64,000 bases of DNA from Winogradskyella sp. PC-19 (GTDB lineage Bacteria > Bacteroidota > Bacteroidia > Flavobacteriales > Flavobacteriaceae): assembly GCF_002163855.1 (NCBI RefSeq), contig NZ_CP019332.1:971145-1035144 (forward strand), given 5' to 3'. This document shows positions 4,517-52,450 of the stretch, one piece after another. Both the position numbers and the translations under genes were made by a program. How positions within the stretch are numbered: the stretch's first letter is position 1; every line of letters begins with the position of its first letter. Under the pieces are notes generated by a model. It was given only the letters and a program-made list of their open reading frames with translations, was not told where the DNA came from and did not search any database.

Positions 4517-4641
4517 TCTATTAGTTAGTTTCTGTAAAAATAGAAAAGTATTTTAGTTCTAACCATATCGTATACAATAACTGCTAAGTTTTATAGTTTA
4601 ATAGAAACAAAATATTGTGCATCTTTGTAAAAAATTTGTTC

Positions 4642-5712: not shown

Positions 5713-5729
5713 AAATTCCAAACTTACTT

Positions 5730-6902: not shown

Positions 6903-8297
6903 TTACTGTCCTCTGTAATATAAAACTGTACTTAAAGTTTTTAGTATGATATTTAAATCTAGGAATGGACTACGATGTTTTATGTAATATAAATCGTATT
7001 GCAATTTGGTAAGACTTTCTTCAACAGATCCTCCATATCGGCTATTCACTTGAGCCCAACCGGTAAGACCAGGTTTGACGATATGCCTAGTTTCGTAAAA
7101 TGGTATTGAACGAGATAATTCAGCCACAAAAAATGGACGCTCTGGTCGTGGTCCGATGATACTCATTTCACCTTTGAGTACATTAATAAATTGTGGAATT
7201 TCGTCCAAACGTGAACGCCTTAAAAACTTGCCAAAATATGTGACTCGCACATCGTCCTTAGTTGCCCATTGCGCTTTTTGCGATTCGGCATCAACAACCA
7301 TAGTTCTAAACTTAAAAATTGTAAATAGCGTACTATTTCTTCCAATACGTTCTTGAGTGTAAAATAAAGGTCCTTTATTCCCTATAGCATTTCCAATTAG
7401 TAAAAAAGGAATAATCGCTATCATAAATAATAGTCCAAAAAATGAAAAAATGATATCAAACGCACGTTGAAAAAACTTATATAGCTGATTTTCGTTGTTT
7501 CTACTAAATGGAAAGTATTTGTAAAAGTCTTTCCCTACATATTGAATAGGTACTTTATTAGTGACCTCTTCATAAACCTGAGTATACTCTCTGATTTTAA
7601 AACCACGCTCTAATAATAGCATCAATTCATGGTATAAATCTGGTGTAATATTTTCTGCATTATTAGCCGCAATTATAATCTCAGATATTTGTTCGTCAAT
7701 AATAACATTTGATAAGTGCTTAGTAGTATACTCTTTTAGACCTTTATACTTTATTGAATCGTTATTGTTTTTTTCACTATTGATAAATCCAATAAATCTA
7801 TAATTTGAGTCCGCCGACGTTAATGTGCTAACAACATTATCAATATTTGGTAATTCACCTACCAAAAGCACATGTTTATAAAAACGTGGTGAAGCAATAA
7901 GTATATTATATAATACACGCCATAAAAAAACGGACGCTATTAGCGCAATATAAAAATAGATGATTTGTAAACGTGCTTCTGGTAAAAAAGGGGTAATTAT
8001 TGGAGTCAGCAGATAAAAGAGTACTACTGTAGACATACATAAAACTATGTTTTTGAAACTGACATCTAGCTTACTAGCTTGCTGCAAATCATAGATTTCG
8101 AATATAGTTCCGAATATAGAAATATAAACGGCTAACACTATCAGAGGAACCGTATTTTCTATACCAATATTTAGATATTCGAATCCAAAATAGTTAGAGA
8201 GCACAAAAATGCCCAAAAATGCCATAATAATATCAATCAGTCGCAGTAATACCTTGCGCTCTGAAATCTCAAAGTGTATGGCACTATTTTGTTTCAT
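6903..8297 (-). CDS. polyprenyl glycosylphosphotransferase (WcaJ-type initiating enzyme)
   Basis: Transfers a sugar 1-phosphate to undecaprenyl phosphate to begin polysaccharide repeat-unit synthesis. The 464 aa protein has four N-terminal membrane segments, a central CoA-binding-like domain (about 140-260) and a C-terminal bacterial sugar transferase domain beginning with a membrane hairpin near 275. The catalytic Asp365-Glu366 lies in RLDEIPQFINVLKGEMS, followed by IIGPRPERP. This is the last gene of the polysaccharide locus and is separated from the glycosyltransferases by 60 nt carrying its own promoter-like sequence, so it may be expressed independently. Confidence 0.92.
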   Translation of the reverse strand: MKQNSAIHFEISERKVLLRLIDIIMAFLGIFVLSNYFGFEYLNIGIENTVPLIVLAVYISIFGTIFEIYDLQQASKLDVSFKNIVLCMSTVVLFYLLTPIITPFLPEARLQIIYFYIALIASVFLWRVLYNILIASPRFYKHVLLVGELPNIDNVVSTLTSADSNYRFIGFINSEKNNNDSIKYKGLKEYTTKHLSNVIIDEQISEIIIAANNAENITPDLYHELMLLLERGFKIREYTQVYEEVTNKVPIQYVGKDFYKYFPFSRNNENQLYKFFQRAFDIIFSFFGLLFMIAIIPFLLIGNAIGNKGPLFYTQERIGRNSTLFTIFKFRTMVVDAESQKAQWATKDDVRVTYFGKFLRRSRLDEIPQFINVLKGEMSIIGPRPERPFFVAELSRSIPFYETRHIVKPGLTGWAQVNSRYGGSVEESLTKLQYDLYYIKHRSPFLDLNIILKTLSTVLYYRGQ

Positions 8298-8320
8298 TAA
8301 TTAGGAGATAGTTGGTGTTG

Positions 8321-8349
8321 TAAAGATAAATCTCTTGAACAGAAAACAA
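8321..8349 (-). promoter_or_regulatory. candidate Bacteroidota promoter for the initiating sugar transferase
   Basis: On the minus strand a -33 TTG (8347-8349) is followed after 18 nt by TATCTTTA (8321-8328), matching seven of eight positions of the TAnnTTTG -7 box. It lies 24 nt before the ATG of the sugar transferase gene. This would let the initiating enzyme be transcribed apart from the upstream 27-kb gene run. Confidence 0.5.
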
Positions 8350-8357
8350 AACAAATC

Positions 8358-9374
8358 TTAAAGTGCTTTAAAAATAGCATGCCATTCATTTTTTAAAGAC
8401 TGCCAATCAAAACGTTCTGCGTTTTTCCTTGTATTAGTAGATAGCTTTACCCTTAATTTTTCGTCTTCAAAAATTCTAATAATGTTTTCTGCCATTGCCT
8501 CCGCATTATTTTTTGGTGACAAGAGACCTTCTTCTTCATTTTTTATCAAATAAGCAATACCGCCAACCTTTGTACTTACTAATGGAAAGCCTAATGCCAT
8601 TGCTTCAATAATACTTACCGGCATATTATCATAATTGGTAGTATTCATAAAAATATTGTAATCTTCAGAGATATTAATCCATTCTTTTTTTGTCAATTTA
8701 CCAGTAAACTTAATATTGACACCTGTCTTTTTTGCATATGCTTTAACTTTTTCCAAACTACCGTCCGTATCTGGTCCTACCATGCAAAGTTCTGCTTCAT
8801 GACCCAATTCTTTCAAACGTATCAACACCTCTATAGCCATAATAGGATTATAAATTTTTGAAAACGAACGCACCCAAAGCAACCTGATTGTATTAAATGA
8901 TTTAGGGTAAACTGCATAATTTTCTAACGAAATGCTATTAGGTATATATTCGACATTATCATATCCTTTTTCAGAAAAAGCATTTTTGAGATATATTGAA
9001 GGTGAAATATTTTTAAAACTATTATCAAATATTGAAGCAGATAATTTTGGGTTTTTATCTAAACGTTCTGGTAAATTTCCACCATGAAGTATAGGTAGAT
9101 AAGGAATATTAAATAATCGACACACTAAACTACAAGTGTAGGCATAATAAAAATTTTGCGTACTGTAAGTATCTATTAAAACTGCATCCGCCCATTTTGA
9201 ATTCCATATGCAACTCCATATCATATGCAGTAATCGAAGGAATTTATTCCTTTTCGAAGAAGCATAGCGCAAATTATAGCCTTCAGACTCAAGCAAAGCT
9301 CCTAAAACCTGTATTGATGATACATTGGTTTTTGAAGAGTCTAGGTTATTTCCTATGTAAAGAATTCTATACAT
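8358..9374 (-). CDS. glycosyltransferase family 4 protein
   Basis: A 338 aa GT-B fold glycosyltransferase, retaining type, presumably adding one sugar to the growing lipid-linked oligosaccharide on the cytoplasmic face. The C-terminal domain has the GT4 pattern with Asp249 and Glu257 (DNMPVSIIEAMALG) in place of the usual E-x7-E, followed by FPLVSTKVGG. The ATG overlaps the stop of the next upstream gene by one base. Donor and acceptor cannot be assigned. Confidence 0.85.
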   Translation of the reverse strand: MYRILYIGNNLDSSKTNVSSIQVLGALLESEGYNLRYASSKRNKFLRLLHMIWSCIWNSKWADAVLIDTYSTQNFYYAYTCSLVCRLFNIPYLPILHGGNLPERLDKNPKLSASIFDNSFKNISPSIYLKNAFSEKGYDNVEYIPNSISLENYAVYPKSFNTIRLLWVRSFSKIYNPIMAIEVLIRLKELGHEAELCMVGPDTDGSLEKVKAYAKKTGVNIKFTGKLTKKEWINISEDYNIFMNTTNYDNMPVSIIEAMALGFPLVSTKVGGIAYLIKNEEEGLLSPKNNAEAMAENIIRIFEDEKLRVKLSTNTRKNAERFDWQSLKNEWHAIFKAL

Positions 9375-10960
9375 TATAATTTATAAAGATATAAATCTCC
9401 TTCCTCATTTAGAATCTCTAAAGATTCTATTATTTTGTTGGTAACCATATGTGTTGCACCAATAGTCTTAACAAACTCTACTTTATTTTTATCATCATGA
9501 AAACTTTCTAAAATTTTTCTTCTATTGTACCAATTAATTAATCTTGCTGGATTTCCTTCTATCAGCATAGATGCTCCTTTAAAGTCTAAGATAACTGAAC
9601 GCTGTGACGACACTCTATACAAGTGACTTGCATAAATAACAGCATCTATATTTGTATGTGTTTTTATGAAGTATGCCATCTTATCTTGATTTGAAATGCT
9701 TTTAACTGACTTAGGTCTTAGGCTTAGGTTAGAAGGCAAAATAGTTCTAAAAATATCATCTCCAAATACAGGTATTTTATTAAATAAACTTATATGACAG
9801 ACTATTAAACTTACTACAAATACAATCGAAATTTTGAGCATATATTTATTAAAAACTTCATATTTTTCAAGTAAATAATCAATCAGAAAAAACATTGAAA
9901 GATAATATGGTATAATAACTAGTTTTTGTATTCTGATAAGTTGAAAGGACATCCTAATATTAGTATCCATCACTGAATTAATAACATCTTCTATATAGAC
10001 AGAAATATTTGGTAAAAAAATTAATGCTAGAGCTGAGAATAATATAAATTTTGCTCTTTTTCCTTCAGATTTATCACGGAGACATAATACGAGGTAACTA
10101 AGAAATGGGATATAAAAAAACAGATATTTTATATCCATCCATTGGTTTATATAATATATTGGTTTAGAGAATTTTAAAGAGATACGTTCGCTAAAAGCTG
10201 CTTCGAATAATTCTAAATCATAATCAATAGTTGAATTGGTATATGTGAAATATGTAATAATAAAAGGTATCATTCCAAGGATTACTGCCAAAAAACATAA
10301 TAGTATCAAATAGTAATTAACTTTCGAGTTGTCGTAATACATCTTAGCAATAGCATAAATCAAGAACAACAAAATACCTCCTAACCCACTTATGGGATGA
10401 AAGTTAAAAAGTAAACCTATTAAAAACGAAGCTAAAAAAATTCGTATCAATACATTTTTTTTAAATATTAAAAATGGTATGGGTATTAGGGTAAAATATA
10501 GTGTTCGCGGAAGTAATAAATCCAAATTAGAAACACCCCAAAACTCAAAGCCAGGTAGCCAAATGACACCTTTTAAAAGCAGAGAAAAAATAAGTGAAAG
10601 AAAAAATTTATTTGAAAAATTATAAAAAATATAAAACCATAAAATACCATATAGCAGGTGACTAAATGTGTTAAGAATATTTAATGCTAGAATATAATTC
10701 TGATTTACAAGATTTGAAATGAAGTGTAAACATTTTACAAAAAAAGGTGTGTAATATTCAACATTTTTAATGTCATTCAAATAAAGATCATTCTGAAATA
10801 AATTTGGATTATCTAATTTTTGAATTATTGGAATTATATTATGCAAATCAGTAGATAAATCACTGTATTTGTAATCTAACCCTTCAAAAAAATAACCTAC
10901 ACAAACAATTAAATTTAAGGCAATAACGATTAAAAAAATGTTTGTCTTCTTATGTTTCAT
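9374..10960 (-). CDS. polytopic membrane protein, GT-C-like with DUF6798-like C-terminus
   Basis: A 528 aa protein with about ten hydrophobic helices and a soluble C-terminal segment of about 100 residues. A periplasmic-loop-like stretch near residues 30-65 lies between the first two helices, and the C-terminal part contains YRVSSQRSVILDFKG and INWYNRRKI, a pattern reminiscent of DUF6798 domains at the end of GT-C-like proteins. It overlaps the GT2 gene upstream by 4 nt. A glycosyltransferase that uses polyprenyl-linked sugars in the periplasm is plausible given the neighbouring polyprenyl-sugar-type GT2, but this is inference. Very A/T-rich, even for this locus. Confidence 0.55.
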   Translation of the reverse strand: MKHKKTNIFLIVIALNLIVCVGYFFEGLDYKYSDLSTDLHNIIPIIQKLDNPNLFQNDLYLNDIKNVEYYTPFFVKCLHFISNLVNQNYILALNILNTFSHLLYGILWFYIFYNFSNKFFLSLIFSLLLKGVIWLPGFEFWGVSNLDLLLPRTLYFTLIPIPFLIFKKNVLIRIFLASFLIGLLFNFHPISGLGGILLFLIYAIAKMYYDNSKVNYYLILLCFLAVILGMIPFIITYFTYTNSTIDYDLELFEAAFSERISLKFSKPIYYINQWMDIKYLFFYIPFLSYLVLCLRDKSEGKRAKFILFSALALIFLPNISVYIEDVINSVMDTNIRMSFQLIRIQKLVIIPYYLSMFFLIDYLLEKYEVFNKYMLKISIVFVVSLIVCHISLFNKIPVFGDDIFRTILPSNLSLRPKSVKSISNQDKMAYFIKTHTNIDAVIYASHLYRVSSQRSVILDFKGASMLIEGNPARLINWYNRRKILESFHDDKNKVEFVKTIGATHMVTNKIIESLEILNEEGDLYLYKL

Positions 10961-11904
10961 TTGCTAGGCCTAGGAGAATTTTCAATATCATTATTAATTA
11001 CTTGTAACAGTAATTGAAAACCGAGAATAATACATAAAGTAATTATCATTATGGTGCCTGTAGGTGTAAAAATATCTCGAGATGAGTAATATATCCAATT
11101 GTAAACACCATATACTATACCGAATAAAAACAATGGCAAACCAAATATCAAATACACAGATGATATATTAAAGTCGTATATAAAATAGCGCTTAACGATT
11201 CTACTTATAAATAACCTTATAAGTTTAGGAAGAAAAACAAAAGGCATTTTCCACACTTTCATATTTGATGTCTCATCTCCATAAACCGCACTCATCGGCA
11301 CATCTACTATTCTTGCTTTCTGAAAATATAATTCTGACAAAATTGAGGTTTCAAAGAAATATCTGTTACTAAGTTTTTGAAAATTCATTTTTGTTAATGA
11401 AGCTGTTTTTATGGCAAAAAAACCATTTGTAGGATCAAACACATGCCAATATCCTGTCGCCGATTTTGTTAAAAATGACAATATTAAATTACCTATTTTC
11501 CTAATAAAGGGCATTTTACGCAACTTAGCAAAATCATGAAAACGATTCCCTTTTGCATAATCCGCAGTGCTTTGGATTAATGGTTTAAGTAAATCAGGAA
11601 TATATTTACTCTCCATTTGACCATCAGCATCCACTTTTATTAAATAGTCCATGTTATCAGTTATTCCAGCTATAAAACCTTTTTTAACTGCGCCACCAAC
11701 ACCAAGATTTACTTCACAATCAATGATTTTCACTTTTAAAAAAGTGTTAACCTGACTAGGTATTTCTTCTAAGCTTGCATCGTTAACCAAATAGATTGTA
11801 TCTATATATTCTGGTAAATTCTTAATAACATCTGCAATAAAGTCTTTAGCATTATAATAAGGGATTATGACACCAATTCTATAATTATTTAAATCAAAAT
11901 CCAT
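10957..11904 (-). CDS. GT2 glycosyltransferase with C-terminal membrane helices (polyprenyl-phosphate sugar synthase-like)
   Basis: A 315 aa protein with a GT-A domain: IGVIIPYYNA at the N-terminus, LVNDAS near residue 40 and the metal-binding Asp92-x-Asp94 in VDADGQM. Two hydrophobic helices at about 245-265 and 280-305 follow, the layout of DPM1/GtrB-type enzymes that charge polyprenyl phosphate with a single sugar. Such a product would feed the adjacent GT-C-like membrane protein, which overlaps it by 4 nt. This pairing is inferred from order and domain layout. Confidence 0.8.
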   Translation of the reverse strand: MDFDLNNYRIGVIIPYYNAKDFIADVIKNLPEYIDTIYLVNDASLEEIPSQVNTFLKVKIIDCEVNLGVGGAVKKGFIAGITDNMDYLIKVDADGQMESKYIPDLLKPLIQSTADYAKGNRFHDFAKLRKMPFIRKIGNLILSFLTKSATGYWHVFDPTNGFFAIKTASLTKMNFQKLSNRYFFETSILSELYFQKARIVDVPMSAVYGDETSNMKVWKMPFVFLPKLIRLFISRIVKRYFIYDFNISSVYLIFGLPLFLFGIVYGVYNWIYYSSRDIFTPTGTIMIITLCIILGFQLLLQVINNDIENSPRPSK

Positions 11905-13213
11905 ACTTAAAATATCTCGGTGAAATTAATAATGCTACTACAAATAAAAATAAGCCTAATAATGCGAACACTGGTCTAAAAATATATAAATGCTCTCCAA
12001 ATAACAAGGTTACCATCATTGCCAAAACTACGGCTTTTAAAAAAACACCCAAGGTTTTATAAGTTTTAAAGTTTATGAATAGATAACCCAAAAGCCAAAT
12101 TACATAAAAAAATAATCCAACTAAACCAACTTCGTTAATGAGCGTCAAATACATATTATGAGGCGAATTACCTGGAAATAGCATTCTATTATTAAAACCA
12201 GCTCCAAAAGGCACAACATATAAATTATCCTTTAAACTCAGTAAAAAACGTGTTTGTAATTCTTTTCTTCCAGCACCCAAATCCTCATATAACTCAGTTA
12301 CGTTACTATCTCTAAGTTGTTCTTTATTACTTATTCGTGATTCAATTCTATACTGATAAACTTCAACTATTTTATTCCTTATTTCTGGCACAAAAAATGT
12401 AATTCCAAATAATAAAACTAAAGAAACACCTAAGCTTACTAGCATTTTACCAGGTTTAAATAGAAGTACTATTGCTAAAAGAATACCAAGGGCTAAATAA
12501 GATGTTCGTGATCCAGAAATTAATAGGTTTACTACAGACAGAGATATAGCTATAAAAGCTAAAGTTCTATTAATTTTTATACGCTTCTCTAGGGATAAAG
12601 CTAGAAGTGCCGCAATTGATAAAAACATTGTTAGCCCCAATACAATTTTATTTGGCCCTAAAGTACCAGACAAAAAACCAAGATAATCTCTTCTGTCTAT
12701 TTCGCCCCATAAAAAATCTATAAAGCCAAAATTCTGAAGTAAAACAATAGCATTTTCAAAAATAACTAGCCCAATAAAAAAAGTAACAATTTGCTTATAG
12801 AACTTTTTTTCTCTTAAAAATACGAGAAAGAATAAATAAGCCGTTGAGAATACAAAAAGATGATACATAAACAGAATTGTACGTAAAATCCAAATTATTT
12901 TATTGATATAAATGCTAAAAATAAAAGTAAAAATCATTGTAATTAAAGCCCAAAAAATAAATAAAAACAGCCTATACAGATAAGGTTTTGCCTTTATATA
13001 TAACATAAAATATGTTCTATATTTTATTAGGTAATAGAGCAAAAACAAACCTGTAAAATCATACAATCGTAACTCGTTTTGACCAGTTAAACTGTAGCCC
13101 ATAACTTTTAGGTTGTAGAAATAACTCAACAATGTTAAAAACAAAATAATACGCAGGGTTTTATTTTTCCTGATGTAAACCATAAATGCTTTTAGCTGAT
13201 TGTAATCACTCAT
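11894..13213 (-). CDS. O-antigen ligase / polymerase family membrane protein (Wzy/WaaL-like)
   Basis: A 439 aa protein with about ten to twelve membrane helices and a large periplasmic loop (about 265-340) ending in PHNMYLTLINEVGLVGLFFY, the conserved His-containing region of the O-antigen ligase (Wzy_C) family. The segment LGPNKIVLGLTMFLSI and ISGSRTSYLALGI match typical family positions. It could polymerise repeat units (Wzy) or ligate polysaccharide to lipid A-core (WaaL); the ABC exporter in this locus makes ligase somewhat more attractive. It overlaps its neighbours by 11 and 4 nt. Confidence 0.82.
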   Translation of the reverse strand: MSDYNQLKAFMVYIRKNKTLRIILFLTLLSYFYNLKVMGYSLTGQNELRLYDFTGLFLLYYLIKYRTYFMLYIKAKPYLYRLFLFIFWALITMIFTFIFSIYINKIIWILRTILFMYHLFVFSTAYLFFLVFLREKKFYKQIVTFFIGLVIFENAIVLLQNFGFIDFLWGEIDRRDYLGFLSGTLGPNKIVLGLTMFLSIAALLALSLEKRIKINRTLAFIAISLSVVNLLISGSRTSYLALGILLAIVLLFKPGKMLVSLGVSLVLLFGITFFVPEIRNKIVEVYQYRIESRISNKEQLRDSNVTELYEDLGAGRKELQTRFLLSLKDNLYVVPFGAGFNNRMLFPGNSPHNMYLTLINEVGLVGLFFYVIWLLGYLFINFKTYKTLGVFLKAVVLAMMVTLLFGEHLYIFRPVFALLGLFLFVVALLISPRYFKYGF

Positions 13214-14346
13214 ATGGCAGCACTGGTTAATATACCTTCTACTATTTTGGAATTATAATTGTCATAAGAGAACTTTAAGACTAAATCTTGATTAGTCATT
13301 TTAAAAGTTAGATTATCGGGTTTATCAGACAATAAATCTGCTAAGACTTCCTCTAATTTTTCAGCAGTTACTTCAGACAACAATATCCCATTATCTCTGT
13401 CAATAACGTATTGTGCTATAGATGAGATATTTGAAACTACAGGAATGCATCCAAAATTCATTGCTTCGGCAATTACCTTCGGAAAACCTTCAGATGCAGT
13501 TGTAGGCATCAAGAAAAAATGTGACTTTTTATAAATATCAAAAACATCTTTTCTATCTAAAAAACCATAAAATTTAAAGTTAATCTTACTATCATTAGCT
13601 AAGTCTAAAAACTTTGATTTTTCTGTACCATCACCAACCAAATGAACTGCTTCCACTCTATCCTTTAATGAAGGCTCTAAATTTTTGAAAGCATTAATAA
13701 TTCTACCCACACCTTTTGGTGTTTCCAAACGACCAACATAACAGAAACTCAATTTTCCGTTCGTTTTTTTTGATGCTGTAATGGATTTTCCTTCATTTAT
13801 ATTATCCTCAGTTAAGCATGGGTTTTCAAATGTTATACAATGTGCAGGTTGATTTTTCCATTCTCCATTAATGGTCACTTTCCGTCTTTGATATTTTAAC
13901 AAAAAACGTTGCAAAGCATAACTCAAAGGCGCATCATTTTGATTCCAATTACCTGCATACTTATACCAACCTTGCTTTTTAGAAAACAATGTCAAATAAG
14001 GAATTAAATATGTACCAATACCTGTGGGTGTACGCAACTGAAAATAATCTACCTTCTTTAGAATTGTAGATATAATACCAATAGTTTTAGGCGCGTTAAA
14101 AATAATTCTAAATTTATCTGTAAAAGTTTTTCCACCTGAAGATGGTATTTCAATAAATTTAATTTTATTCGATTTATAAGCCATTGTACTGGCCGGCGCA
14201 ACACCATGATAAAGCATAGATGCATGATAAATTTCATCAAAAATATCTAATAAATGATTAATTTCATTTACAGTCGGAGCCCAACCTAAAATTTGTCCAT
14301 CAGTGGACATATAATGTTCGGTATGTGAAATTATTAAAAGTTTCAA
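13210..14346 (-). CDS. glycosyltransferase family 4 protein
   Basis: A 378 aa GT-B enzyme. The C-terminal donor domain begins near residue 195 with FCYVGRLETPKGV and contains the E-x7-E motif at Glu286/Glu294 (EGFPKVIAE). The N-terminal acceptor domain starts MKLLIISHTEHYM, with FQLRTP near residue 105. It is coupled to both neighbours by 4-nt ATGA overlaps. Sugar specificity is unknown. Confidence 0.85.
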   Translation of the reverse strand: MKLLIISHTEHYMSTDGQILGWAPTVNEINHLLDIFDEIYHASMLYHGVAPASTMAYKSNKIKFIEIPSSGGKTFTDKFRIIFNAPKTIGIISTILKKVDYFQLRTPTGIGTYLIPYLTLFSKKQGWYKYAGNWNQNDAPLSYALQRFLLKYQRRKVTINGEWKNQPAHCITFENPCLTEDNINEGKSITASKKTNGKLSFCYVGRLETPKGVGRIINAFKNLEPSLKDRVEAVHLVGDGTEKSKFLDLANDSKINFKFYGFLDRKDVFDIYKKSHFFLMPTTASEGFPKVIAEAMNFGCIPVVSNISSIAQYVIDRDNGILLSEVTAEKLEEVLADLLSDKPDNLTFKMTNQDLVLKFSYDNYNSKIVEGILTSAAI

Positions 14347-15449
14347 GATTTTATAAAAGATATGTAACGTTTAATTATTTGACTCCATTGATGTTTTTCT
14401 GCCCAAATTTTAGCTTTAACTTTATAATGTGGTAAGTTATTAAGTATTTGAAATATTGCGTTCTCAAACTCTTTAATTTTAGAAGAATCCACCAATAATC
14501 CCGAATTTTGATGATTAATAGCGTCTTCAATCCCACAATTTCTTGACCCAATTGTCGGTAGTCTAAAATAATTAGCTTCTATCAAAGCTATACCGAAACC
14601 TTCTATATCACCTGATGCAGTATTTTGACTTAGCATTACAAAAATATCAGAACTACGATAAAAATCATGAAGTTTCTCTACACCAACATGACCATGAAAT
14701 GTAACATATTTAGAGACACCTAAGTTGTCACAAAGACGTCTGTATTTATCAATTTCAGTTTTTAAACCTACACAATGGTAATGTAAATCTGGATATTTTT
14801 TAATAAGACTAGGTAAATATTCAATAACTTTAGCTTGTCCTTTGCGTTCTGTCAAATTTCCGACAGTCAATAAACTTGGTGAACCTTTTAAATTTATAAT
14901 TGAGGCTGCACTCGATGAAAAATTTGAAATTTCAAATCCATTTGGTATGACCATGGTGTTTTTTAACTTCAAATGTGAAACTAAATTTTTTGTATAATTA
15001 GAAACTGCTATAACTTTGTCAAACCGCTGTAATGAAATACTTATCGATTTTTTTAGATTTTGATTTGAAAAATTAACTTCTGTTCCATGAATTACAGCTA
15101 TAACTTTAGCCTTAATAATTGGCTTTAAAACAGCACCTATCCACAATGGAAACTTACCAGAACAGATTAATACATCCGCAGACTTTGACAGTTTAAAAGA
15201 TAACCAAATGCGTTTTAGATACATTAAAGAACGTATCGACACTTTTTTTACACGGTATATTTTACTTTTTAAACTCTTATCAAATATAACTTCTTGATTT
15301 GAATCTGCACGTTGGTCTGCAATGACAGAAACTCTATAACCAGACACTGTAAGATTCTCTGCCAAATTACAAGCATGATTTCCTATTCCACCAGGTAGCG
15401 GAGGAAATTCCGAAGTTAAAATTACAATGTGCTCTTTCTTATCAGACAT
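14343..15449 (-). CDS. glycosyltransferase family 4 protein
   Basis: A 368 aa GT-B enzyme with an N-terminal glycine loop (PPLPGGIGNH, about residues 16-25) and the retaining GT4 E-x7-E motif at Glu283/Glu291 (EGFGIALIE). LTVGNLTERKGQ near residue 195 marks the start of the donor-binding domain. The start shares a base with the stop of the upstream GT2 gene. Its role in the pathway order cannot be set from sequence. Confidence 0.87.
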   Translation of the reverse strand: MSDKKEHIVILTSEFPPLPGGIGNHACNLAENLTVSGYRVSVIADQRADSNQEVIFDKSLKSKIYRVKKVSIRSLMYLKRIWLSFKLSKSADVLICSGKFPLWIGAVLKPIIKAKVIAVIHGTEVNFSNQNLKKSISISLQRFDKVIAVSNYTKNLVSHLKLKNTMVIPNGFEISNFSSSAASIINLKGSPSLLTVGNLTERKGQAKVIEYLPSLIKKYPDLHYHCVGLKTEIDKYRRLCDNLGVSKYVTFHGHVGVEKLHDFYRSSDIFVMLSQNTASGDIEGFGIALIEANYFRLPTIGSRNCGIEDAINHQNSGLLVDSSKIKEFENAIFQILNNLPHYKVKAKIWAEKHQWSQIIKRYISFIKS

Positions 15450-16774: not shown

Positions 16775-16795
16775 TTATTCTATTTGAAACATTAA

Positions 16796-17983: not shown

Positions 17984-18015
17984 TTTATTGACTGAATAGT
18001 CATTTAAAAGTTTCT

Positions 18016-22439: not shown

Positions 22440-22467
22440 AACGTTTACTCAGACTAATATATGATTT

Positions 22468-23643: not shown

Positions 23644-23681
23644 CCTAGACTTTTTTGGCTTTAATTTAAGCTATTAGATAA

Positions 23682-25342: not shown

Positions 25343-25351
25343 CGTATCAAA

Positions 25352-26293: not shown

Positions 26294-26306
26294 AACGGTG
26301 ATGAAA

Positions 26307-27233: not shown

Positions 27234-28062
27234 AACGTTTGTCTTTTAATGTTCCGTCAGTAGATAGTCGCCACGAACTTGAGGCATTGCAACTATTCAT
27301 AAAAAATTGAGTCTCTTTGGATAGATTATCGGTATCTATATACCAACTTAGGTGTTTTGCTATATAAGGAGAGGCAGTTCTTATGCCGCTTAAAAACCTA
27401 CCATCTTTTGCATGATATTTTGGTCTGTACATTGCAAATGTAGTATCTATGTTGGCTTCGTAAAGCTCTGCAGATAAGGGTTTGAGCCACCATTGTGTTT
27501 CCCATTCAATAATTTTTAATTTATTTTTATTTGTGTTAGGAATATCATCAATTTTAAGGCTTAAACCTACTTTGGTAGCTTTACTGTTTGTATTTAATAT
27601 TTTTATAAATAGATTCATAAAATTTTCAGCATTTTCATGAAGTGGCAAAATATCTGGGTCTGTAACTACGTAATAACCGCCAGCGTACTTTTTGTAAACT
27701 TCAGGAACTTCCCAAAATACCTTATGACCGTAATTTTTTTTCAATCTTTTAATCGCTACAACAGATTTGATTTCATTAAAATAATCTAATAAGGGCTTGT
27801 AAGTAGAATTGTTGTCAATAATTATAATATTTCTAAAACCAGAGGAAAGTAAATAATCAATGAGTTGTTTTAAATAAGTAAGTTGATTAAAACTGATAAT
27901 TATAATTGGTATTGATAAAACATTTTTCTCTTGTGCTATTGCAAGTCTATTAAAATAACGATTTACCAATTGATTATAAGCAAATTTAAAAACCAACTGA
28001 AGCTGACTTAATGTACTATAAGCACCTAGTTTTTTAGATATGTTTCTCAGTAGACTTTTCAT
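27226..28062 (-). CDS. divergent GT2-like glycosyltransferase
   Basis: A 278 aa protein with a GT-A-like core starting late, at residue 51 (IPIIIISFNQLTYLKQLI), then IIIDNNSTY and Asp135-Pro-Asp137 (VVTDPDILPLHE) as the probable metal-binding DxD. The end of the protein contains YIDTDNLSKETQFFM. The first 45 residues are basic/hydrophobic and may be a membrane-associating helix. Assignment to glycosyltransferases is confident from fold motifs; the subfamily is not clear. Confidence 0.72.
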   Translation of the reverse strand: MKSLLRNISKKLGAYSTLSQLQLVFKFAYNQLVNRYFNRLAIAQEKNVLSIPIIIISFNQLTYLKQLIDYLLSSGFRNIIIIDNNSTYKPLLDYFNEIKSVVAIKRLKKNYGHKVFWEVPEVYKKYAGGYYVVTDPDILPLHENAENFMNLFIKILNTNSKATKVGLSLKIDDIPNTNKNKLKIIEWETQWWLKPLSAELYEANIDTTFAMYRPKYHAKDGRFLSGIRTASPYIAKHLSWYIDTDNLSKETQFFMNSCNASSSWRLSTDGTLKDKRYD

Positions 28063-28091
28063 TATAAATCAAACCTTAATCTCATTAAGGG

Positions 28092-29021
28092 CTATTTAAA
28101 TTTTAAAGGATTATAGTATTTTTTAAATTTCAGTAATTTAGGATATTTGGAGACTAAACTTATCCAATAAAACATATCAGAAATATAGCTTTTTTTCAGA
28201 GATTTTCTGTTTCTCCATAAACAAGTCCAAAGTTTAAAAAATCTGTAATCGTTAATATTTTTTTTAAAAGACCAATTTAAAAGAGACTCATACATTAATT
28301 TTCTGTTTTTGATATATAATGCCTCATTACCTCTAAAAACATTAGTATCATGCACGCCACGCAAAGCAACTGGCGTATCAATTACTCCTCCAATTAATTT
28401 ACATTGTAAAGCCATTTTAAGATACAATTCTGTATCCTCGGCAACACTCAATTTTGGATTAAAAAAACCTACACTGTCAAAAACTCGACGATGTACGGTG
28501 AGTCCATCTCCTGAAAAATAACCTTTATGCCCAATTGGTGTCATTGACTCAAATAATTTTTCTGGAGGAATAACTTCCCATACAGAAAGTAGTTTTAATT
28601 TTTCTTTTTCTTCAATACTACAATCTATATAAAAATGCGAGCCAATTGCATTATAAACACCATCTACGGAATTGTCATTATTAAAGATTTTCTTATCCAT
28701 ATCAAAGCGATGTGGTAAGTAAAAATCATCTGCATCTAAAAAAGCTATGTAAGTACTTTTAGCATTTTGTATACCAAGATTTCTACTTTTAGAGCGACCT
28801 TTATTAACACCATACTGATGTCTTAAAACGACCAACCTTGGCTCTTTTTTTTGAATTTTATATAGCAAATCTAAAGTACTGTCTGTACTACCATCTTCAA
28901 CAACAACAACCTCTACTACATCTTTTTGACTAAAAGCAGATTCTATGGCTTTTTCAATGTATTTTTCGCCATTGTAAACCGGTATAATAACAGAGATGTT
29001 GAAAATCTTGAGATTACTCAT
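28092..29021 (-). CDS. GT2 glycosyltransferase
   Basis: A 309 aa GT-A enzyme with ISVIIPVYNGEKYI, VVEDGSTDST and the Asp-Ala-Asp-Asp motif in FLDADDFYLPHR. I chose the ATG at 29021 over the one at 29036 because it gives a 4-nt ATGA overlap with the pyruvyltransferase stop, the coupling used repeatedly in this locus; the longer form would add MSFCN. VAEDTELYLKMAL is the conserved acceptor-side segment. Confidence 0.87.
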   Translation of the reverse strand: MSNLKIFNISVIIPVYNGEKYIEKAIESAFSQKDVVEVVVVEDGSTDSTLDLLYKIQKKEPRLVVLRHQYGVNKGRSKSRNLGIQNAKSTYIAFLDADDFYLPHRFDMDKKIFNNDNSVDGVYNAIGSHFYIDCSIEEKEKLKLLSVWEVIPPEKLFESMTPIGHKGYFSGDGLTVHRRVFDSVGFFNPKLSVAEDTELYLKMALQCKLIGGVIDTPVALRGVHDTNVFRGNEALYIKNRKLMYESLLNWSFKKNINDYRFFKLWTCLWRNRKSLKKSYISDMFYWISLVSKYPKLLKFKKYYNPLKFK

Positions 29022-29833
29022 ATTGCAAAAGGACAAACATTCAATAAACCTGAAGAGAGCTCATTTACGACTTCTGGCTTTGGCAAAGCAATATCGCTGT
29101 AGTGCTCAAAAAAGGTATTTATATCGGTATTATTAAGTTTTGACTTAGAAATTATAATTGGCTCAGGATAATCTAAACCAACGGAATTAAAATAATCATA
29201 AAACTTAATATCATCACCATATAAGTTATCTGAAAATTTTATCCATAACGCAGGAATACCATATGAATGAGCAACAATTACACCATGTAAAGATGATGAT
29301 ATAATTTTGTCACATTCAACGATTTTATCAACTGTATTTTCAATATTATTTGTTAAGAAGTTTATCAGACCTATATTTTTATTTAAAAACTCATTTTTTT
29401 CGAAGATTTTGTTATCAACATAATGTGGAATAATACCTACATCATAACGCTTTTCTAATTTTGGATTATACAATTTTGGCAACAAAATTGCTGGATCACC
29501 ATAAACTTCTGGCACACTATAATTCTTTTGTAAAAGATATTGTCTGGTTTGCGGACCTCTTACAGCAAGAAATGTTGCGTTTTTGACTTCGTCTGTTTTA
29601 CTAATAATTCCGCTTCCCCAAACAATTGATTTTTCTGTAGCCACAGTTATTATACTACCGATTGCTAAATAATGTTTTGGCGTGATTAAACGTTTTTTAT
29701 TGGGGTTAAACCATTTTACTTCTTTGCCAGAAATTTTTTGAACTATATATTTTGATAATAAGTCTCCAAAATTTTCAGGCTCATCTAAACTGAGTTTTGA
29801 TTTTGACCACCAATATAAATTTAAATGTCCCAT
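29018..29833 (-). CDS. polysaccharide pyruvyl transferase family protein
   Basis: A 271 aa protein with the family opening NLYWWSKSKLSLDEPENFGDLLSKYI, given here as the pieces NLYWWSK and PENFGDLLSKYI, WGSGI and FLAVRGPQTRQYL, then YGDPAILLP and SSSLHGVIVAHSYGIPALWIKF (SSSLHGVIVAHSYG). These match the CsaB/WcaK-type enzymes that transfer pyruvate from phosphoenolpyruvate to sugar hydroxyls as ketals. A pyruvylated residue would add negative charge to the polymer. It begins one base away from the acyltransferase stop. Confidence 0.87.
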   Translation of the reverse strand: MGHLNLYWWSKSKLSLDEPENFGDLLSKYIVQKISGKEVKWFNPNKKRLITPKHYLAIGSIITVATEKSIVWGSGIISKTDEVKNATFLAVRGPQTRQYLLQKNYSVPEVYGDPAILLPKLYNPKLEKRYDVGIIPHYVDNKIFEKNEFLNKNIGLINFLTNNIENTVDKIVECDKIISSSLHGVIVAHSYGIPALWIKFSDNLYGDDIKFYDYFNSVGLDYPEPIIISKSKLNNTDINTFFEHYSDIALPKPEVVNELSSGLLNVCPFAI

Positions 29834-30433
29834 TTATACTTCTGATTTAAGAGGATTTAAATTTAAATCTGTGAAGAATAATAATTTATTTTTTTCAATT
29901 TCGGATTTTGACATATGCCACCATTCTAAATTTTCTAGATATAAAATGGTTTCTTCATTAAATCTGTTTTTAATCTTTTTGGCTGGAACTCCAGCGTATA
30001 TTGCATAATGTTCAACATCCTTGGAAACTACACTTCCTGCACCTATACATGCACCGTTTCCTATTTTTACTCCCGGTAATATAGTAACATTATCTCCAAT
30101 CCACACATCATGTCCAATAGTTATTGATAAATGGTTTGGGTCTTGTATTTTATAGGGTAATTCCTTAAAATTATTTCTATAAAATGTATATTGGATTGAA
30201 GCAAAATTATAATTATGGTTAGATTTTATTAAAGTAATATTTCTACCAAAAGCACAATAGTTACCAATTTTTATAATTCCTTGGCCACGTATTATAAAAC
30301 CACCATTGTGATAAGTTTCGATACCAGTCGATAAAAACTCTGAATTACTTATTAAAAAAGGTGGCTTTTTTACCACAGTTTCTCCAATCAGATACTTTTT
30401 AAAATATTTTTTTAATGTTCTTTTAACTCCCAT
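29834..30433 (-). CDS. hexapeptide-repeat O-acetyltransferase (CatB/WbbJ-like)
   Basis: A 199 aa left-handed beta-helix acyltransferase. Hexapeptide repeats run through GIIKIGNYCAFGRNITLI and IGHDVWIGDNVTILPGVKIG (about 110-130), then GNGACIGAGSVVSKDV and the closing YAGVPAKKIKNRF. SNHN around residue 72 may provide the catalytic His. It probably acetylates a sugar hydroxyl. Its ATG lies 22 nt inside the end of the upstream wzt-like gene, so the two are tightly coupled. Confidence 0.86.
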   Translation of the reverse strand: MGVKRTLKKYFKKYLIGETVVKKPPFLISNSEFLSTGIETYHNGGFIIRGQGIIKIGNYCAFGRNITLIKSNHNYNFASIQYTFYRNNFKELPYKIQDPNHLSITIGHDVWIGDNVTILPGVKIGNGACIGAGSVVSKDVEHYAIYAGVPAKKIKNRFNEETILYLENLEWWHMSKSEIEKNKLLFFTDLNLNPLKSEV

Positions 30434-31689
30434 TTTGCATGATTGTATGTTAAATATCCTCCAAAGGGAATTTTTCCAGTCTTAAACACGTCACTTTCTT
30501 GTATAACAAAACTTAATGCATTCTCAATAATTTCAATTGTTTCATTTGAATTAGCCAAAGCAAAAGTTAATATATACTCGCCTGGCATCAAATTAAAGTC
30601 ATCGATCTTAACATTCAATATAAAATTACTTTTAGCTTCTAAACTATGGTTAAGCATTTCATGAGAACGTATTGCACTTACCTTAATATCGTTACTATTT
30701 TTGATTATTATACTTGCCTTAATATTATTTAACTTAATCGCGTTACTTATGAAAAGTTCAAAATGGATAGCTTCTCCCATGTAGAATAGATCCGTTAATT
30801 TTTTTTGCGAATTATAAAGGTTGACTTCTTTTAAGTGAGTATCTTTTTTCTTTAAATCTAAAGTTAACTTTCCATTATTTCGACTATTAAGCTGATTTGA
30901 CTTTAAATATTGCTTAATAACTTCACTAACATCTCCGTTCTTAACTACATTTCCATTTTCAATTAATAATGCTCTAGTACACAGACTATCTATAGCCACC
31001 ATATTATGACTTACAAATAGCACTGTACGACCTTCACCTCTGCTTATATCTTGCATTTTACCAACCGCCTTTTTCTGAAACTCGGCATCACCAACAGCCA
31101 AAACCTCATCAATGACCAAAATATCTGGCTCTAAAAATGCAGCTACAGCAAAAGCCAACCGCACTGTCATTCCGCTACTGTAACGTTTTACAGGTGTATC
31201 TATGTATCGCTCACATCCAGAAAATTCTATAATTTCATCTAGTTTATCTGAAATTTCGGATTTGGTCATTCCTAATATAGCGCCATTTAAAAACACATTT
31301 TCTCTACCTGTCAATTCCTGATGAAAACCGGTACCTACTTCCAACAATGAGGCAATGCGACCATTAAACTGCACTTTGCCAGTTGTTGGCGCCGTAACTC
31401 GAGATAATATTTTTAATAGTGTAGATTTTCCGGCACCGTTCTTACCAATAATCCCTAATACTTCGCCTCGATTGACTTCAAAATTTATGTCTTTTAAAGC
31501 CCAAACATAATCGCTATTTCCTTTTGAAGACCTATCATTATCGTCACCAATTTTCAGAAATGGATTTTCTTTACCACGAACTCTATACCAAAATCGTTTT
31601 AAATCATCAACAAGCGTACTCGCACCAACTAATCCTAAGCGATACTGTTTACTTAAATTACTGACTTTCAAAATTATTTCGCTACTCAT
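30412..31689 (-). CDS. wzt: polysaccharide ABC exporter ATPase with C-terminal glycan-recognition domain (Wzt-like)
   Basis: ATPase of an ABC-2 type exporter for undecaprenyl-linked polysaccharide. Walker A GKNGAGKST (82-90), signature YSSGM (170-174), Walker B ILVIDE (190-195), and H-loop His228 are all present; the segment RIASLLEVGTGFHQELTGREN is typical of Wzt/TagH ATPases. Residues about 280-425 form an extra beta-rich domain like Wzt_C, which in O9a/O8 systems reads the terminal modification of the finished chain. With 425 aa it matches extended Wzt proteins. The methyltransferases in this locus could supply such a cap, by analogy. Confidence 0.92.
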   Translation of the reverse strand: MSSEIILKVSNLSKQYRLGLVGASTLVDDLKRFWYRVRGKENPFLKIGDDNDRSSKGNSDYVWALKDINFEVNRGEVLGIIGKNGAGKSTLLKILSRVTAPTTGKVQFNGRIASLLEVGTGFHQELTGRENVFLNGAILGMTKSEISDKLDEIIEFSGCERYIDTPVKRYSSGMTVRLAFAVAAFLEPDILVIDEVLAVGDAEFQKKAVGKMQDISRGEGRTVLFVSHNMVAIDSLCTRALLIENGNVVKNGDVSEVIKQYLKSNQLNSRNNGKLTLDLKKKDTHLKEVNLYNSQKKLTDLFYMGEAIHFELFISNAIKLNNIKASIIIKNSNDIKVSAIRSHEMLNHSLEAKSNFILNVKIDDFNLMPGEYILTFALANSNETIEIIENALSFVIQESDVFKTGKIPFGGYLTYNHAKWELKEH

Positions 31690-31694
31690 AATAA

Positions 31695-32564
31695 TTATAC
31701 GGTATCAATAAACGTTTTTTCAGTTTTATTAAAAATAACTATTCCTAAGAATAAAACACATAATGTTACTAATCCCGAAATTAAAAGACCTTGCAGCGAT
31801 ATTTCTCCAGAAGATAAAAGCATATATCTTGCTGCTTCAATAAAATAAGCTATTGGGTTATACTCAACTAACCAAGCAAAATTTGGTAATTTTTCTCGCA
31901 TTAACGCTATCGGGTACATTACCGCAGAAATATACATTAAAAGTTGAATTCCAAAATTGAGTAAATATTTTAAGTCGCGGTATTTAGTTACCATAGAAGA
32001 AATTATCATACCCAATCCTAAACTTAGCATTGCCATAAAGATTATTAAAACTGGAAACAAAAATGCACTTTTATGGAGTGCTATAGAAGCACCTGCAAAA
32101 TAGTAATAAACATAAAATGCCATAAAAATAAGCAGCTGAATACCAAACTTAAATAAATTGGATATTACCGTAGACATAGGAGAAATTATTCTCGGAAAAT
32201 AAACCTTACTAAAAATATTAGCGTTGGACGTAAACGTGTTAGACGTTGTTGTAAGGCAATTTTTAAAATAGTTCCAAACAGTTACACCTGCTAGGTTGAA
32301 TAAAAATGGAGGCACAGTTCCTGTTCCAATATTTGCTACTTTATTAAAAATTAAAGTAAATGTTAGTGCCGTAAATAAAGGCTGAATGAGATACCATAAT
32401 GGCCCTAAAATGGTTTGCTTATATACAGTAACTATGTCTCTTTTTACAAAAAGCAACAACAAATCACGATACTGCCACATTTCCTTAAAATTAAAGTCAA
32501 TGAGTTTTCGTTTTGCAGAAATTGTATAAAGCCACTTATGAGTTTGATTGGTTTTCAACGACAA
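31695..32564 (-). CDS. wzm: polysaccharide ABC exporter permease (Wzm-like)
   Basis: Inner-membrane channel subunit of the ABC-2 family; 289 aa with six membrane helices and the signature ILGPLWYLIQPLFTALTFT near residue 50. AGVTVWNYFKNCL and NPIAYFIEAARYMLL are also family landmarks. The start is TTG at 32564; a second in-frame TTG lies 6 nt later and the next ATG is only at codon 29, inside the conserved amphipathic region. A 90-nt gap separates it from wzc, the largest in this part of the locus, so an internal promoter there is possible. Confidence 0.9.
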   Translation of the reverse strand: MSLKTNQTHKWLYTISAKRKLIDFNFKEMWQYRDLLLLFVKRDIVTVYKQTILGPLWYLIQPLFTALTFTLIFNKVANIGTGTVPPFLFNLAGVTVWNYFKNCLTTTSNTFTSNANIFSKVYFPRIISPMSTVISNLFKFGIQLLIFMAFYVYYYFAGASIALHKSAFLFPVLIIFMAMLSLGLGMIISSMVTKYRDLKYLLNFGIQLLMYISAVMYPIALMREKLPNFAWLVEYNPIAYFIEAARYMLLSSGEISLQGLLISGLVTLCVLFLGIVIFNKTEKTFIDTV

Positions 32565-32654
32565 CTTTTAATTTTAGATTAGCAAGTACAATTTTAATTA
32601 ATATCACTCTGCAGATACACCAAAGTATATAAACATTAGGTTATAGTAAAATAA

Positions 32655-35129: not shown

Positions 35130-35132
35130 AAA

Positions 35133-35927
35133 CTATAGTCTATCTATCAATAAAATTGTACTTGTTATAACTGTTACAACGCCTAAGATTGCAGTAAATG
35201 TTTGCAAACCATTTGTACCTGTACCCAATGATTTTTGCACTAAGGGATCTACAATAATAACATCATTTGGTTGTATGTAATAGTAAGGCGATTTCATAAC
35301 ATTAATGTCCGTTAAATCTAAACGATGTATTTCTTGACCATGTGGATATTGCCTAAGTATACGTACCGATTTACGATTTCCTTCAATGGGAATATCACCA
35401 GCATTAGCAACAGCTTCTAAAATAGTAGCACGTTCTTGAAATATGACCTGTGATCCCGTTGAATTTATTTCTCCTAAAGTCGTGTAACGTAAACCAGCTA
35501 GTTTTGCCGTGACAAATATTTGTGCAAACTCATTGAATTCCTTTTCTAAAAGACGTTGATTTACAAGCACCTCGATATCTTCAAGTGTCATATTAAGCAC
35601 TTCAAAATCACCTAATTGCGGTATTTTTATTTTACCTCTCAAATCGACAGTAAAACCATCAAAATATGCACGTTCCTGTGAACTTGCCTCTAACACACCT
35701 TCTCCTGTAGGATTAAAAATCGTAGCGTTTTCTTGATTTAATACCTTGATTCTAATGTTTAAGATATCATTAATCTGTACACGATAAGGTTTTTGTTGTT
35801 CTACTAAACTTGGTATACTATCGTTAGAATTGCCTTTATCTTGAAGGTAAATCAAATCCTTTTGAGGTACACAGGACGTACATAAAAAAAGGCCTAAGCA
35901 AATAACAGCCAACAAATACCGAGTCAT
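35133..35927 (-). CDS. wza: outer-membrane polysaccharide export lipoprotein (Wza-like)
   Basis: A 264 aa lipoprotein with signal peptide MTRYLLAVICLGLFLCTSC and lipidated Cys19. It contains the Poly_export domain (PYRVQINDILNIRI, residues about 48-61) and an SLBB domain (TLGEINSTGSQVIF, TILEAVANAG), then a C-terminal hydrophobic segment. An upstream GTG at 35948 would add seven residues, but the -7 promoter box overlaps it, so the ATG at 35927 is preferred. First gene of the polysaccharide operon. Shorter than E. coli Wza (about 380 aa), as is usual in Bacteroidota. Confidence 0.92.
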   Translation of the reverse strand: MTRYLLAVICLGLFLCTSCVPQKDLIYLQDKGNSNDSIPSLVEQQKPYRVQINDILNIRIKVLNQENATIFNPTGEGVLEASSQERAYFDGFTVDLRGKIKIPQLGDFEVLNMTLEDIEVLVNQRLLEKEFNEFAQIFVTAKLAGLRYTTLGEINSTGSQVIFQERATILEAVANAGDIPIEGNRKSVRILRQYPHGQEIHRLDLTDINVMKSPYYYIQPNDVIIVDPLVQKSLGTGTNGLQTFTAILGVVTVITSTILLIDRL

Positions 35928-35947
35928 ATATAAAATAGGTTTACTCA

Positions 35948-35976
35948 CAAATATAATCTAACGCTAGAAATAACAA
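35948..35976 (-). promoter_or_regulatory. candidate Bacteroidota promoter of the polysaccharide operon
   Basis: On the minus strand, TTG (35974-35976), 18 nt, then a perfect TAnnTTTG -7 box (TATATTTG, 35948-35955). Transcription would begin about 6 nt downstream, just ahead of the ATG at 35927. This is the best promoter match in the window and stands at the head of the 29-kb minus-strand locus. Confidence 0.7.
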
Positions 35977-50828: not shown

Positions 50829-50937
50829 GTTGACTTAAACTATGCGTTACAAAGTAACAGCTTTTTTTTGTTTTAATCCTATGCTCCAAAAAGTAAACTA
50901 AAAAGAATATTTTTATCGTAATAAAGTTGAATCTAAA

Positions 50938-52446: not shown

Positions 52447-52450
52447 AATT

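Follow-up and report, generated by a model that had tools for sequence, protein, structure and literature searches.

How does a surface polysaccharide leave the cell when its genes pair the inner-membrane pump of one export pathway with the trans-envelope channel of another? This question is raised by a stretch of 64,000 nucleotides from Winogradskyella sp. PC-19 (contig NZ_CP019332.1, positions 971,145 to 1,035,144; here called the window), in which positions 6903 to 35948 are filled, with small gaps, by 26 minus-strand open reading frames (ORFs). An earlier reading made from the sequence alone had described these 26 one-strand genes as a glycan locus with an ATP-binding cassette (ABC) exporter, Wzm/Wzt, whose ATPase carries a Wzt_C domain, together with Wza, a Wzc with a bacterial tyrosine (BY) kinase domain and a WcaJ-type starter enzyme, and our ORF calls and Pfam scan bore out each of these assignments. 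In the textbook pairing, ABC exporters work with polysaccharide co-polymerases (PCPs) of class PCP-3, and BY-kinase co-polymerases of class PCP-2a go with the Wzx/Wzy pathway; in the current view, a Wzc-type kinase determines how long chains grow in Wzy polymerisation and cooperates with the Wza channel during export (PMC12220298, in the part available to us). Our analysis leads us to propose, with a probability of roughly 0.55, that Wzm/Wzt feeds a dedicated Wza/BY-kinase Wzc channel, which would make the system a hybrid of the two textbook pathways. The proposal is built on four observations, namely, the identity of the genes, their conservation, their co-occurrence among genomes and the absence of Wzx from the locus. 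The window is the only DNA of the host itself that we analysed, and statements about the rest of the genome are drawn from its relatives.

The ABC-2 permease (PF01061) and its cognate ATPase (PF00005/PF14524) are encoded by adjacent genes, the arrangement that defines the ABC transporter-dependent pathway. The window Wza matched Poly_export (PF02563) above the cut-off and SLBB_2 below it, and a C-terminal hydrophobic helix was predicted from the sequence both in this protein and in the Wza proteins of 49 of 60 relatives; no beta-barrel family was matched within five genes of the window wza. The window Wzc has the composition of a PCP-2a protein, with two transmembrane (TM) segments, a GNVR domain, Walker A and B motifs (SGEGKT and IVVLDTPP) and a tyrosine-rich C-terminal tail in a single polypeptide. 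Across the family, the Walker A motif was found in 60 of 60 Wzc proteins and a Walker-B-like motif in 59 of 60, and the last 60 residues held a median of 11 tyrosines versus 3.1 expected. By these motifs, the Wzc kinase is intact throughout the family.

The sequence-only reading had also seen no flippase in the locus, and we agree: neither a Pfam scan of the 26 proteins nor a Wzx profile detected a MOP-family flippase among them. The profile recovered 24 of its 24 seeds in leave-one-out trials, by which it was judged because 6 of the 20 pieces in the Wzx control set stopped short of the Wzx gene. Its sole match in the window was a MatE drug-efflux protein (52451 to 53830), which we rejected as the missing flippase, since it lies outside the locus and scores over the cut-off of the MATE efflux model TIGR00797. 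We likewise rejected the 528-residue, 9-TM protein encoded at 9374 to 10960 as a hidden Wzx. It has no match to the Wzx profile or to a MOP family, it travels with a glycosyltransferase (GT) of family GT2 and a rare Wzy_C protein described below, and its own family has invariant acidic residues (Asp) in the first loop. The MATE protein belongs to a group at 49887 to 53830 that also encodes an NAD-dependent sugar epimerase, a GT2 and a PAP2 phosphatase (undecaprenyl-diphosphatase-like, below model cut-offs), with no further listed ORF of at least 120 residues between its genes.

The absence of Wzx extends to the relatives. In 60 of them, where any PF13440 or PF01943 match was counted as Wzx, we found 128 Poly_export (Wza) genes; among the matches listed, 34 had Wzm or Wzt within 45 kb, 39 had a Wzx-family match and none had both (Fisher's exact test, 5e-7, kinship ignored). 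Wzm lay 18 to 30 kb from Wza in 2 of these 34 ABC loci. The weakest Wzx-family and Wzy_C matches fell outside the lists, one of which ended at an E value of 1e-8; 27 of the 34 ABC-linked Wza genes, again among the matches listed, also had a Wzy_C gene. A match to the window Wza at an E value of 1e-40 or lower was present in 90 of 149 genomes of the family, and 60 of these 90 loci were fetched at even steps, of which 53 scored as orthologous. Wzm and Wzt both lay within the stretch of about 18 kb in 46 of the 53 and Wzx in none; in the remaining seven genomes, Wzm was matched at a greater distance or on a separate contig (five strong matches, two weak). The 7 fetched loci with a weaker Wza had neither Wzm nor Wzx within the stretch. 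Other ORFs of more than 330 residues with at least six predicted TM segments numbered 17 in 80 loci, and none was a Wzx: they comprised ten acyltransferases, two PMT-like proteins, two DCC1-like proteins, an SBF transporter, a protein without a family and a single MurJ, which sits in one of the weaker-Wza loci.

Among the 46 orthologous loci with Wzm and Wzt, 32 had an exporter of one subfamily (type I, that of the window) and 14 had a second (type II), such that the exporter has been exchanged between two subfamilies but never for a flippase. The second subfamily (about 60 to 95 bits to the Wzm profile) occupied the Wzm/Wzt position in loci L133 and L143 as well as in the 14 family loci. In other Winogradskyella-like islands (L132, L136, L139, L141 and L146), a pair of genes for proteins of 431 and 325 residues, with slight variation in size, lies between wzc and wzm, usually with a short polyprenyl-phosphate hexose-phosphate transferase (PHPT). 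The window lacks this pair. An island with two PHPTs could make two glycans.

If Wza and Wzc belong to the ABC exporter, they might be expected to differ from those of Wzx loci, and they do. In a Wza tree, the window protein and those of 20 ABC loci formed one clade and those of 20 Wzx loci formed another, each with a support of 100; 10 genomes contributed a Wza to both. The window Wzc showed a median pairwise identity of 57% to the Wzc proteins of the 20 ABC loci versus 26% to those of 12 Wzx loci. On these comparisons, the Wza-Wzc pair is dedicated to the island. In many Wzx loci (L149 to L168), a polytopic protein of about 363 to 377 residues is encoded beside Wza; our guess is that it is perhaps a WecA-like starter.

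A dedicated pair bears directly on the idea that the island Wza and Wzc export, in trans, the product of a Wzx/Wzy locus elsewhere, their place beside Wzm/Wzt being merely historical. The sequence-only reading had recommended a search for a Wzx homologue elsewhere in the genome, and in the relatives nearest to the host such genes are indeed present, often in loci away from Wza. Each of the nearest five genomes has a single Poly_export gene, in the island, and three to four MOP-family proteins by PF13440 (one has five matches, two of them in one frame), and Wzx-family loci without a Wza of their own were visible among the 17 stretches examined, as this explanation would have it. Furthermore, in 33 of 37 genomes used from the 60 relatives (with Wzx counted as above), a Wzx-family plus Wzy_C locus lay away from any listed Wza. 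However, the 39 other Wza genes near a Wzx-family gene in the 60 relatives include 20 that were placed in the tree and fell in the separate clade, and the island Wza keeps company with Wzm and Wzy_C; we therefore regard export in trans as very improbable. The Wzx-family/Wzy_C locus may instead make a glycan different from that of the island. In four near genomes, stretches without a Wza match (L088, L090, L094 and L100) encode a pair of 9- to 11-TM proteins of about 422 to 437 residues and a protein of 599 residues.

The arrangement is conserved. In all 20 relatives whose islands were fetched, wza, wzc, wzm and wzt were present in one order, although Wzm and Wzt were just 23 to 43% identical to those of the window in two of them. 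The starter and the GTs beginning at 8358 and 13210 were matched in 19, 18 and 20 relatives, respectively, and the middle genes were variable. An ABC-F gene flanked the island on one side in 20 of 20 and PorV and Lnb genes flanked it on the other in 19 of 20; in the window, the PorV-like and Lnb genes (4615 to 6899) border the far end of the island. We rejected an assembly accident or a one-off on the strength of this synteny, and the recurrence of the arrangement in dozens of genomes argues that it is more than chance.

Across the 149 genomes, a Wzy_C gene of either kind (see below) accompanied 85 of the 90 Wza matches and occurred in 2 of the 59 genomes without one (Fisher's exact test, 1e-32, kinship ignored). 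Wherever the Wza match was strong (at least 46% identity; 80 genomes), Wzy_C was present, as the usual kind in 75 and as the window kind in 5. Of the 77 genomes in which Wzm was matched, 76 had Wza, versus 14 of the 72 in which it was not; this is a plain count, and a tally that added the 14 type II genomes was set aside as circular, since those loci had been fetched by their Wza. One genome (G149) has retained Wzy_C even though it lies 1.09 Mb from Wza and Wzm. Together with the separate Wza clade and the 46 of 53 loci that hold Wzm/Wzt and no Wzx, these counts give comparative support to the suggestion, already made in the sequence-only reading, that the ABC exporter feeds Wza directly.

Several points weigh against that conclusion. 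Linkage explains much of the co-occurrence, and shared descent inflates the counts, the tests being uncorrected for phylogeny. In four genomes (G193, G064, G095 and G109), Wza is separated from Wzm and Wzy_C by more than 100 kb or sits on a different contig, but their Wza matches are weak (35 to 42%), so that the argument against hitchhiking is thin, and we lowered our estimate from 0.58 to the 0.55 given above. A simple lipobox rule is satisfied by 43 of 60 family Wza proteins and not by that of the window. A Wza-free Wzx/Wzy_C locus elsewhere could borrow the island Wza and Wzc in trans, and a WaaL-like enzyme, such as the locus encodes, would be required for an O-antigen.

The two sections of Wzt are informative about what is exported. 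In pairwise comparisons of 51 type I Wzt proteins, the median identity was 81% over the ATPase part and 16% over the C-terminal part. In ABC-dependent O-antigen systems, the C-terminal domain of Wzt reads the variable end of the finished chain, and a divergent C-terminal part on a conserved ATPase is what would be expected if it does so here.

The Wzy_C protein of the locus required closer attention. The sequence-only reading had called it an O-antigen ligase/polymerase; the family assignment holds, but the match is weak (34.7 bits at a cut-off of 31.7, versus 66 bits for the usual kind) and the gene is the rarer of two kinds rather than the usual gene of this locus. With about 22% identity to the usual protein, it was rejected as its orthologue. 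The usual kind was found in 82 of 149 family genomes, once in each, and the window kind in 5 of the 149 and, in a search of 397 genomes of the family, in 12; the two never shared a genome among the 149, where the rarer kind may be undercounted, the overlap of the two samples being partly established. A sequence search of the PDB with both kinds returned one chance-level match and none.

All 20 relatives carry the usual Wzy_C gene, which directly precedes the GT gene at 8358 in the 8 whose gene order was followed in full. At that position, the window has three genes, for the rarer Wzy_C, a GT2 and the 9-TM protein, none of which was matched in the fetched stretches of the 20 relatives. The GT2 gene follows the rarer Wzy_C gene in 12 of 12 genomes, and the 9-TM gene and then the counterpart of the GT at 8358 complete the order in 6 of 6 checked. 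By gene order, two cassettes alternate at one position of the island. Pfam and NCBIfam assign the 9-TM protein to no family, giving sub-threshold DUF matches only; the invariant acidic residues of its first loop suggest a GT-C enzyme that uses a polyprenyl-linked sugar.

The conservation of Wzy_C also speaks to its role. Among the 20 relatives, the identity was 54% for the usual Wzy_C, 54% for the GT at 8358 and 76% for the starter, whereas Wzy-like proteins of Wzx loci shared 15% (22 proteins picked by length and TM count) or 18% (a second set of 7 Pfam-positive proteins, in whose tree the branches beyond the two Wzy_C kinds are long). A polymerase specific for its repeat would be expected to diverge along with that repeat. 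An enzyme that is conserved at this level and tracks the conserved end genes is better explained as a reducing-end transferase than as a repeat-specific polymerase, and it is probably the former. This comparison is a difficulty for the alternative in which Wzm/Wzt takes the part of a flippase and moves large lipid-linked repeat units, which Wzy_C would polymerise in the periplasm under Wzc control for export by Wza. Such a scheme would account for the presence of Wzc and Wza, typical of Wzy systems, for the many GTs, which suit a long repeat, and for an ABC pump in the place of Wzx. Yet Wzy_C is far too conserved for it while the GTs vary, and the hypervariable C-terminal domain of Wzt fits the recognition of finished variable chains; we consider it improbable.

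Is the product, then, an ABC-dependent O-antigen, exported by Wzm/Wzt, joined to lipid A-core by Wzy_C acting as a WaaL-type ligase and carried onward by Lpt, with Wza and Wzc exporting a capsule form of the same polymer or another glycan? A Wzt with a variable C-terminal domain and an in-locus Wzy_C are the usual kit of such systems, and both are present here. Wzy_C is as conserved as a ligase would be, and no KpsS/KpsC family (PF05159, Capsule_synth) was matched by Pfam in the 26 proteins. On the other hand, a general lipopolysaccharide (LPS) ligase should not track Wza as closely as Wzy_C does, Wza and Wzc would be superfluous for LPS, and the Wza-free Wzx-family/Wzy_C locus of the 33 genomes is another candidate for the O-antigen. 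Ligation to lipid A was the other option raised in the sequence-only reading, and we rank the O-antigen explanation second, as rather unlikely. The simplest assignment would give the O-antigen or another glycan to that other locus and a capsule-like glycan to the island.

Taken together, these results suggest the following scheme, in which all of the biochemistry, including the passage of chains from Wzm/Wzt to Wzc/Wza, is inferred. The WcaJ-type enzyme would start a capsule-like surface polysaccharide on undecaprenyl phosphate, and the neighbouring GTs (8358 and 13210) would add a conserved first section. The variable GTs would complete the chain in the cytoplasm, where it would be decorated or capped. 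The C-terminal domain of Wzt would then read the chain end, Wzm/Wzt would export the finished chain, and the chain would pass to a dedicated trans-envelope channel in which the short Wza, equipped with a C-terminal helix of its own, would sit on the BY-kinase Wzc. The Wzy_C-family enzyme would act at the conserved reducing end, in transfer or in release from the lipid carrier, rather than as a polymerase of repeat units. In the window variant, the usual gene appears to have been replaced by the different Wzy_C, a GT2 like polyprenyl-phosphate-sugar synthases and a GT-C-like membrane protein. Stated in full, the scheme would be a third natural wiring, in which Wza-Wzc, as a dedicated channel, receives finished, undecaprenyl-linked chains from an ABC exporter, the kinase cycle governs export instead of polymerisation, and a Wzy_C that is conserved but swappable acts on the reducing end to remove or transfer the chain; this complete version we put forward tentatively, at somewhat less than even odds.

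Known systems resemble the island in part; the likenesses and differences drawn from cited papers are limited to the portions of those papers available to us. Group 2-type ABC capsules (KpsM/KpsT, KpsE and KpsD) likewise combine an ABC-2 exporter, an inner-membrane co-polymerase and an outer-membrane polysaccharide export (OPX) protein (PMC12220298), but theirs is a PCP-3 without a kinase, whereas the island Wzc has a BY-kinase domain and is PCP-2a-like. The island further differs in its Wzt with Wzt_C, its WcaJ-type starter and the unmatched KpsS/KpsC family. ABC-dependent O-antigen loci (Wzm/Wzt/WaaL) share Wzm, a Wzt with Wzt_C, an in-locus protein of the Wzy_C/O-antigen ligase family and a starter of the undecaprenyl-phosphate type, but the island has, in addition, its separate type of Wza and the BY-kinase Wzc that goes with it. 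Group 1, or Wzx/Wzy, capsules (Wza-Wzb-Wzc) share Wza, a BY-kinase Wzc and a PHPT starter. In contrast to these, the island has Wzx in 0 of 53 loci, a Wzy_C whose conservation is not repeat specific and no match to the Wzb-type phosphatase family (Pfam) in the 26 proteins.

Precedents for a mixture exist. The capsule region of Vibrio cholerae O31 NRT36S has wzm, wzt, wza, wzb and wzc together, and an insertion in wzm abolished the capsule, but that region, known from one strain, also has wzx and a putative wzy (PMC1847822). In Synechocystis, KpsM/KpsT and Wza/Wzb/Wzc homologues all affect extracellular polysaccharide, and the authors suggested that the two pathways may not be separate (PMC7885315 and PMC4594306); the evidence there comes from one strain with genes mutated singly and from gene counts across the phylum rather than from a clustered, co-inherited module. 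In Porphyromonas gingivalis, a Wzx homologue is needed for both LPS types, and wzt and wza-wzc-wzb mutants were also made (PMC3684754). Short OPX proteins with a C-terminal helix are mostly from Bacteroidetes and were expected by Schwabe et al. to act like Wza (PMC9601211). The window protein resembles them in length (up to 280 residues) and in its helix, but they were not tied there to ABC export with a BY-kinase. Our literature search found no description of the island; few subscription papers were reachable, so that absence is not proven. To these precedents for hybrids, the island adds a module that lacks Wzx, is co-inherited across the family and combines a Wza clade of its own with a Wzc whose kinase is intact.

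The 26 genes are listed in Table 1. In the direction of transcription, wza, wzc, wzm, wzt and the acyl- and pyruvyl transferases come first, followed by the GT2 and GT4 genes with two methyltransferases, an asparagine-synthase-like protein and a DUF6625 protein; the Wzy_C protein, the GT2, the 9-TM protein, a GT4 and the starter close the island. The asparagine-synthase-like protein has no match to a glutaminase domain and was matched in 4 of 20 relatives. The DUF6625 protein, in the variable middle, had a reciprocal match in 0 of 20 relatives, whose fetched stretches cover the islands partly. The window has a GC content of 32%, and its neighbouring SecA, ABC-F ATPase and CobO proteins are 89 to 98% identical to those of the four Winogradskyella loci in which all three were covered.

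Table 1. Genes of the polysaccharide island in the window, in order of transcription
Product	Coordinates	Strand	Evidence and conservation
Wza-type OPX protein, 271 aa, Poly_export and weak SLBB, C-terminal hydrophobic helix	35133..35948	-	PF02563 1.2e-10; helix 250-268
Wzc-type co-polymerase with BY-kinase domain (PCP-2a-like), 824 aa	32655..35129	-	GNVR, AAA_31; TIGR01007 above cut-off; Walker motifs, Tyr-rich tail
Wzm, ABC-2 permease (type I exporter)	31695..32564	-	PF01061 1.3e-19; 80% identical in Winogradskyella haliclonae
Wzt, ABC ATPase with C-terminal Wzt_C	30412..31689	-	PF00005 8.9e-24, PF14524 8.4e-12; C-domain hypervariable
Hexapeptide acyltransferase	29834..30433	-	PF00132
Polysaccharide pyruvyl transferase	29018..29833	-	PF04230 1e-16
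GT2 glycosyltransferase	28092..29036	-	PF00535
Weak GT2-like protein	27226..28062	-	PF00535 4e-4, below cut-off
GT2 glycosyltransferase	26307..27233	-	PF00535
Methyltransferase	25352..26293	-	PF13489 5.8e-16
GT2 glycosyltransferase	24437..25342	-	PF00535 5.5e-30
Methyltransferase	23682..24440	-	PF13489 4.4e-15
GT4 glycosyltransferase	22468..23643	-	PF00534 1.7e-33
Asparagine-synthase-like amidotransferase	21054..22439	-	PF00733 4.5e-9; 64-66% identical in three nearest genomes
GT4 glycosyltransferase	19970..21061	-	PF00534
GT2 glycosyltransferase	18953..19969	-	PF00535
DUF6625 protein	18016..18966	-	PF20330 4.8e-54
GT4 glycosyltransferase	16796..17983	-	PF00534 5.6e-37
GT2, partly conserved	15449..16774	-	PF00535; reciprocal match in 13/20 relatives, 12 at at least 49%
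GT4, partly conserved	14343..15449	-	PF00534; 14/20 relatives, 10 at at least 47%, 4 at 23-25%
GT4, largely conserved	13210..14346	-	PF00534; 20/20 relatives, 14 at 36-58%, 6 at just 24-29%
Wzy_C-family protein, rarer kind, 439 aa, 10 predicted TM	11894..13213	-	PF04932 1.9e-8
GT2 resembling polyprenyl-phosphate sugar synthases, alternative cassette	10957..11904	-	PF00535; AglJ/PpgS-like far below cut-offs
9-TM protein, 528 aa, putatively GT-C-like, alternative cassette	9374..10960	-	No Pfam or NCBIfam family
GT4, conserved, probably early in chain assembly	8358..9374	-	PF00534; 18/20 relatives
WcaJ-type polyprenyl-phosphate sugar-phosphate transferase (starter)	6903..8297	-	PF02397 7.4e-65; TIGR03025 above cut-off; 19/20 relatives

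A division of Wza clades by inner-membrane route and an intact kinase in an ABC pathway would be surprising to a specialist. The two roles of Wzc are hard to separate in Wzy systems, and if an ABC pump does deliver finished chains to such a channel, the Wzc kinase could be studied with polymerisation removed. The swap at the Wzy_C position supplies two natural kinds with which to ask whether the enzyme acts as a ligase and on which acceptor. The results also suggest an annotation rule for flavobacterial glycan loci, in which the clade of Wza predicts the inner-membrane route. In marine flavobacteria, the genes for a surface sugar coat form a conserved island, and if the proposal is true, the two jobs of the kinase could be told apart there.

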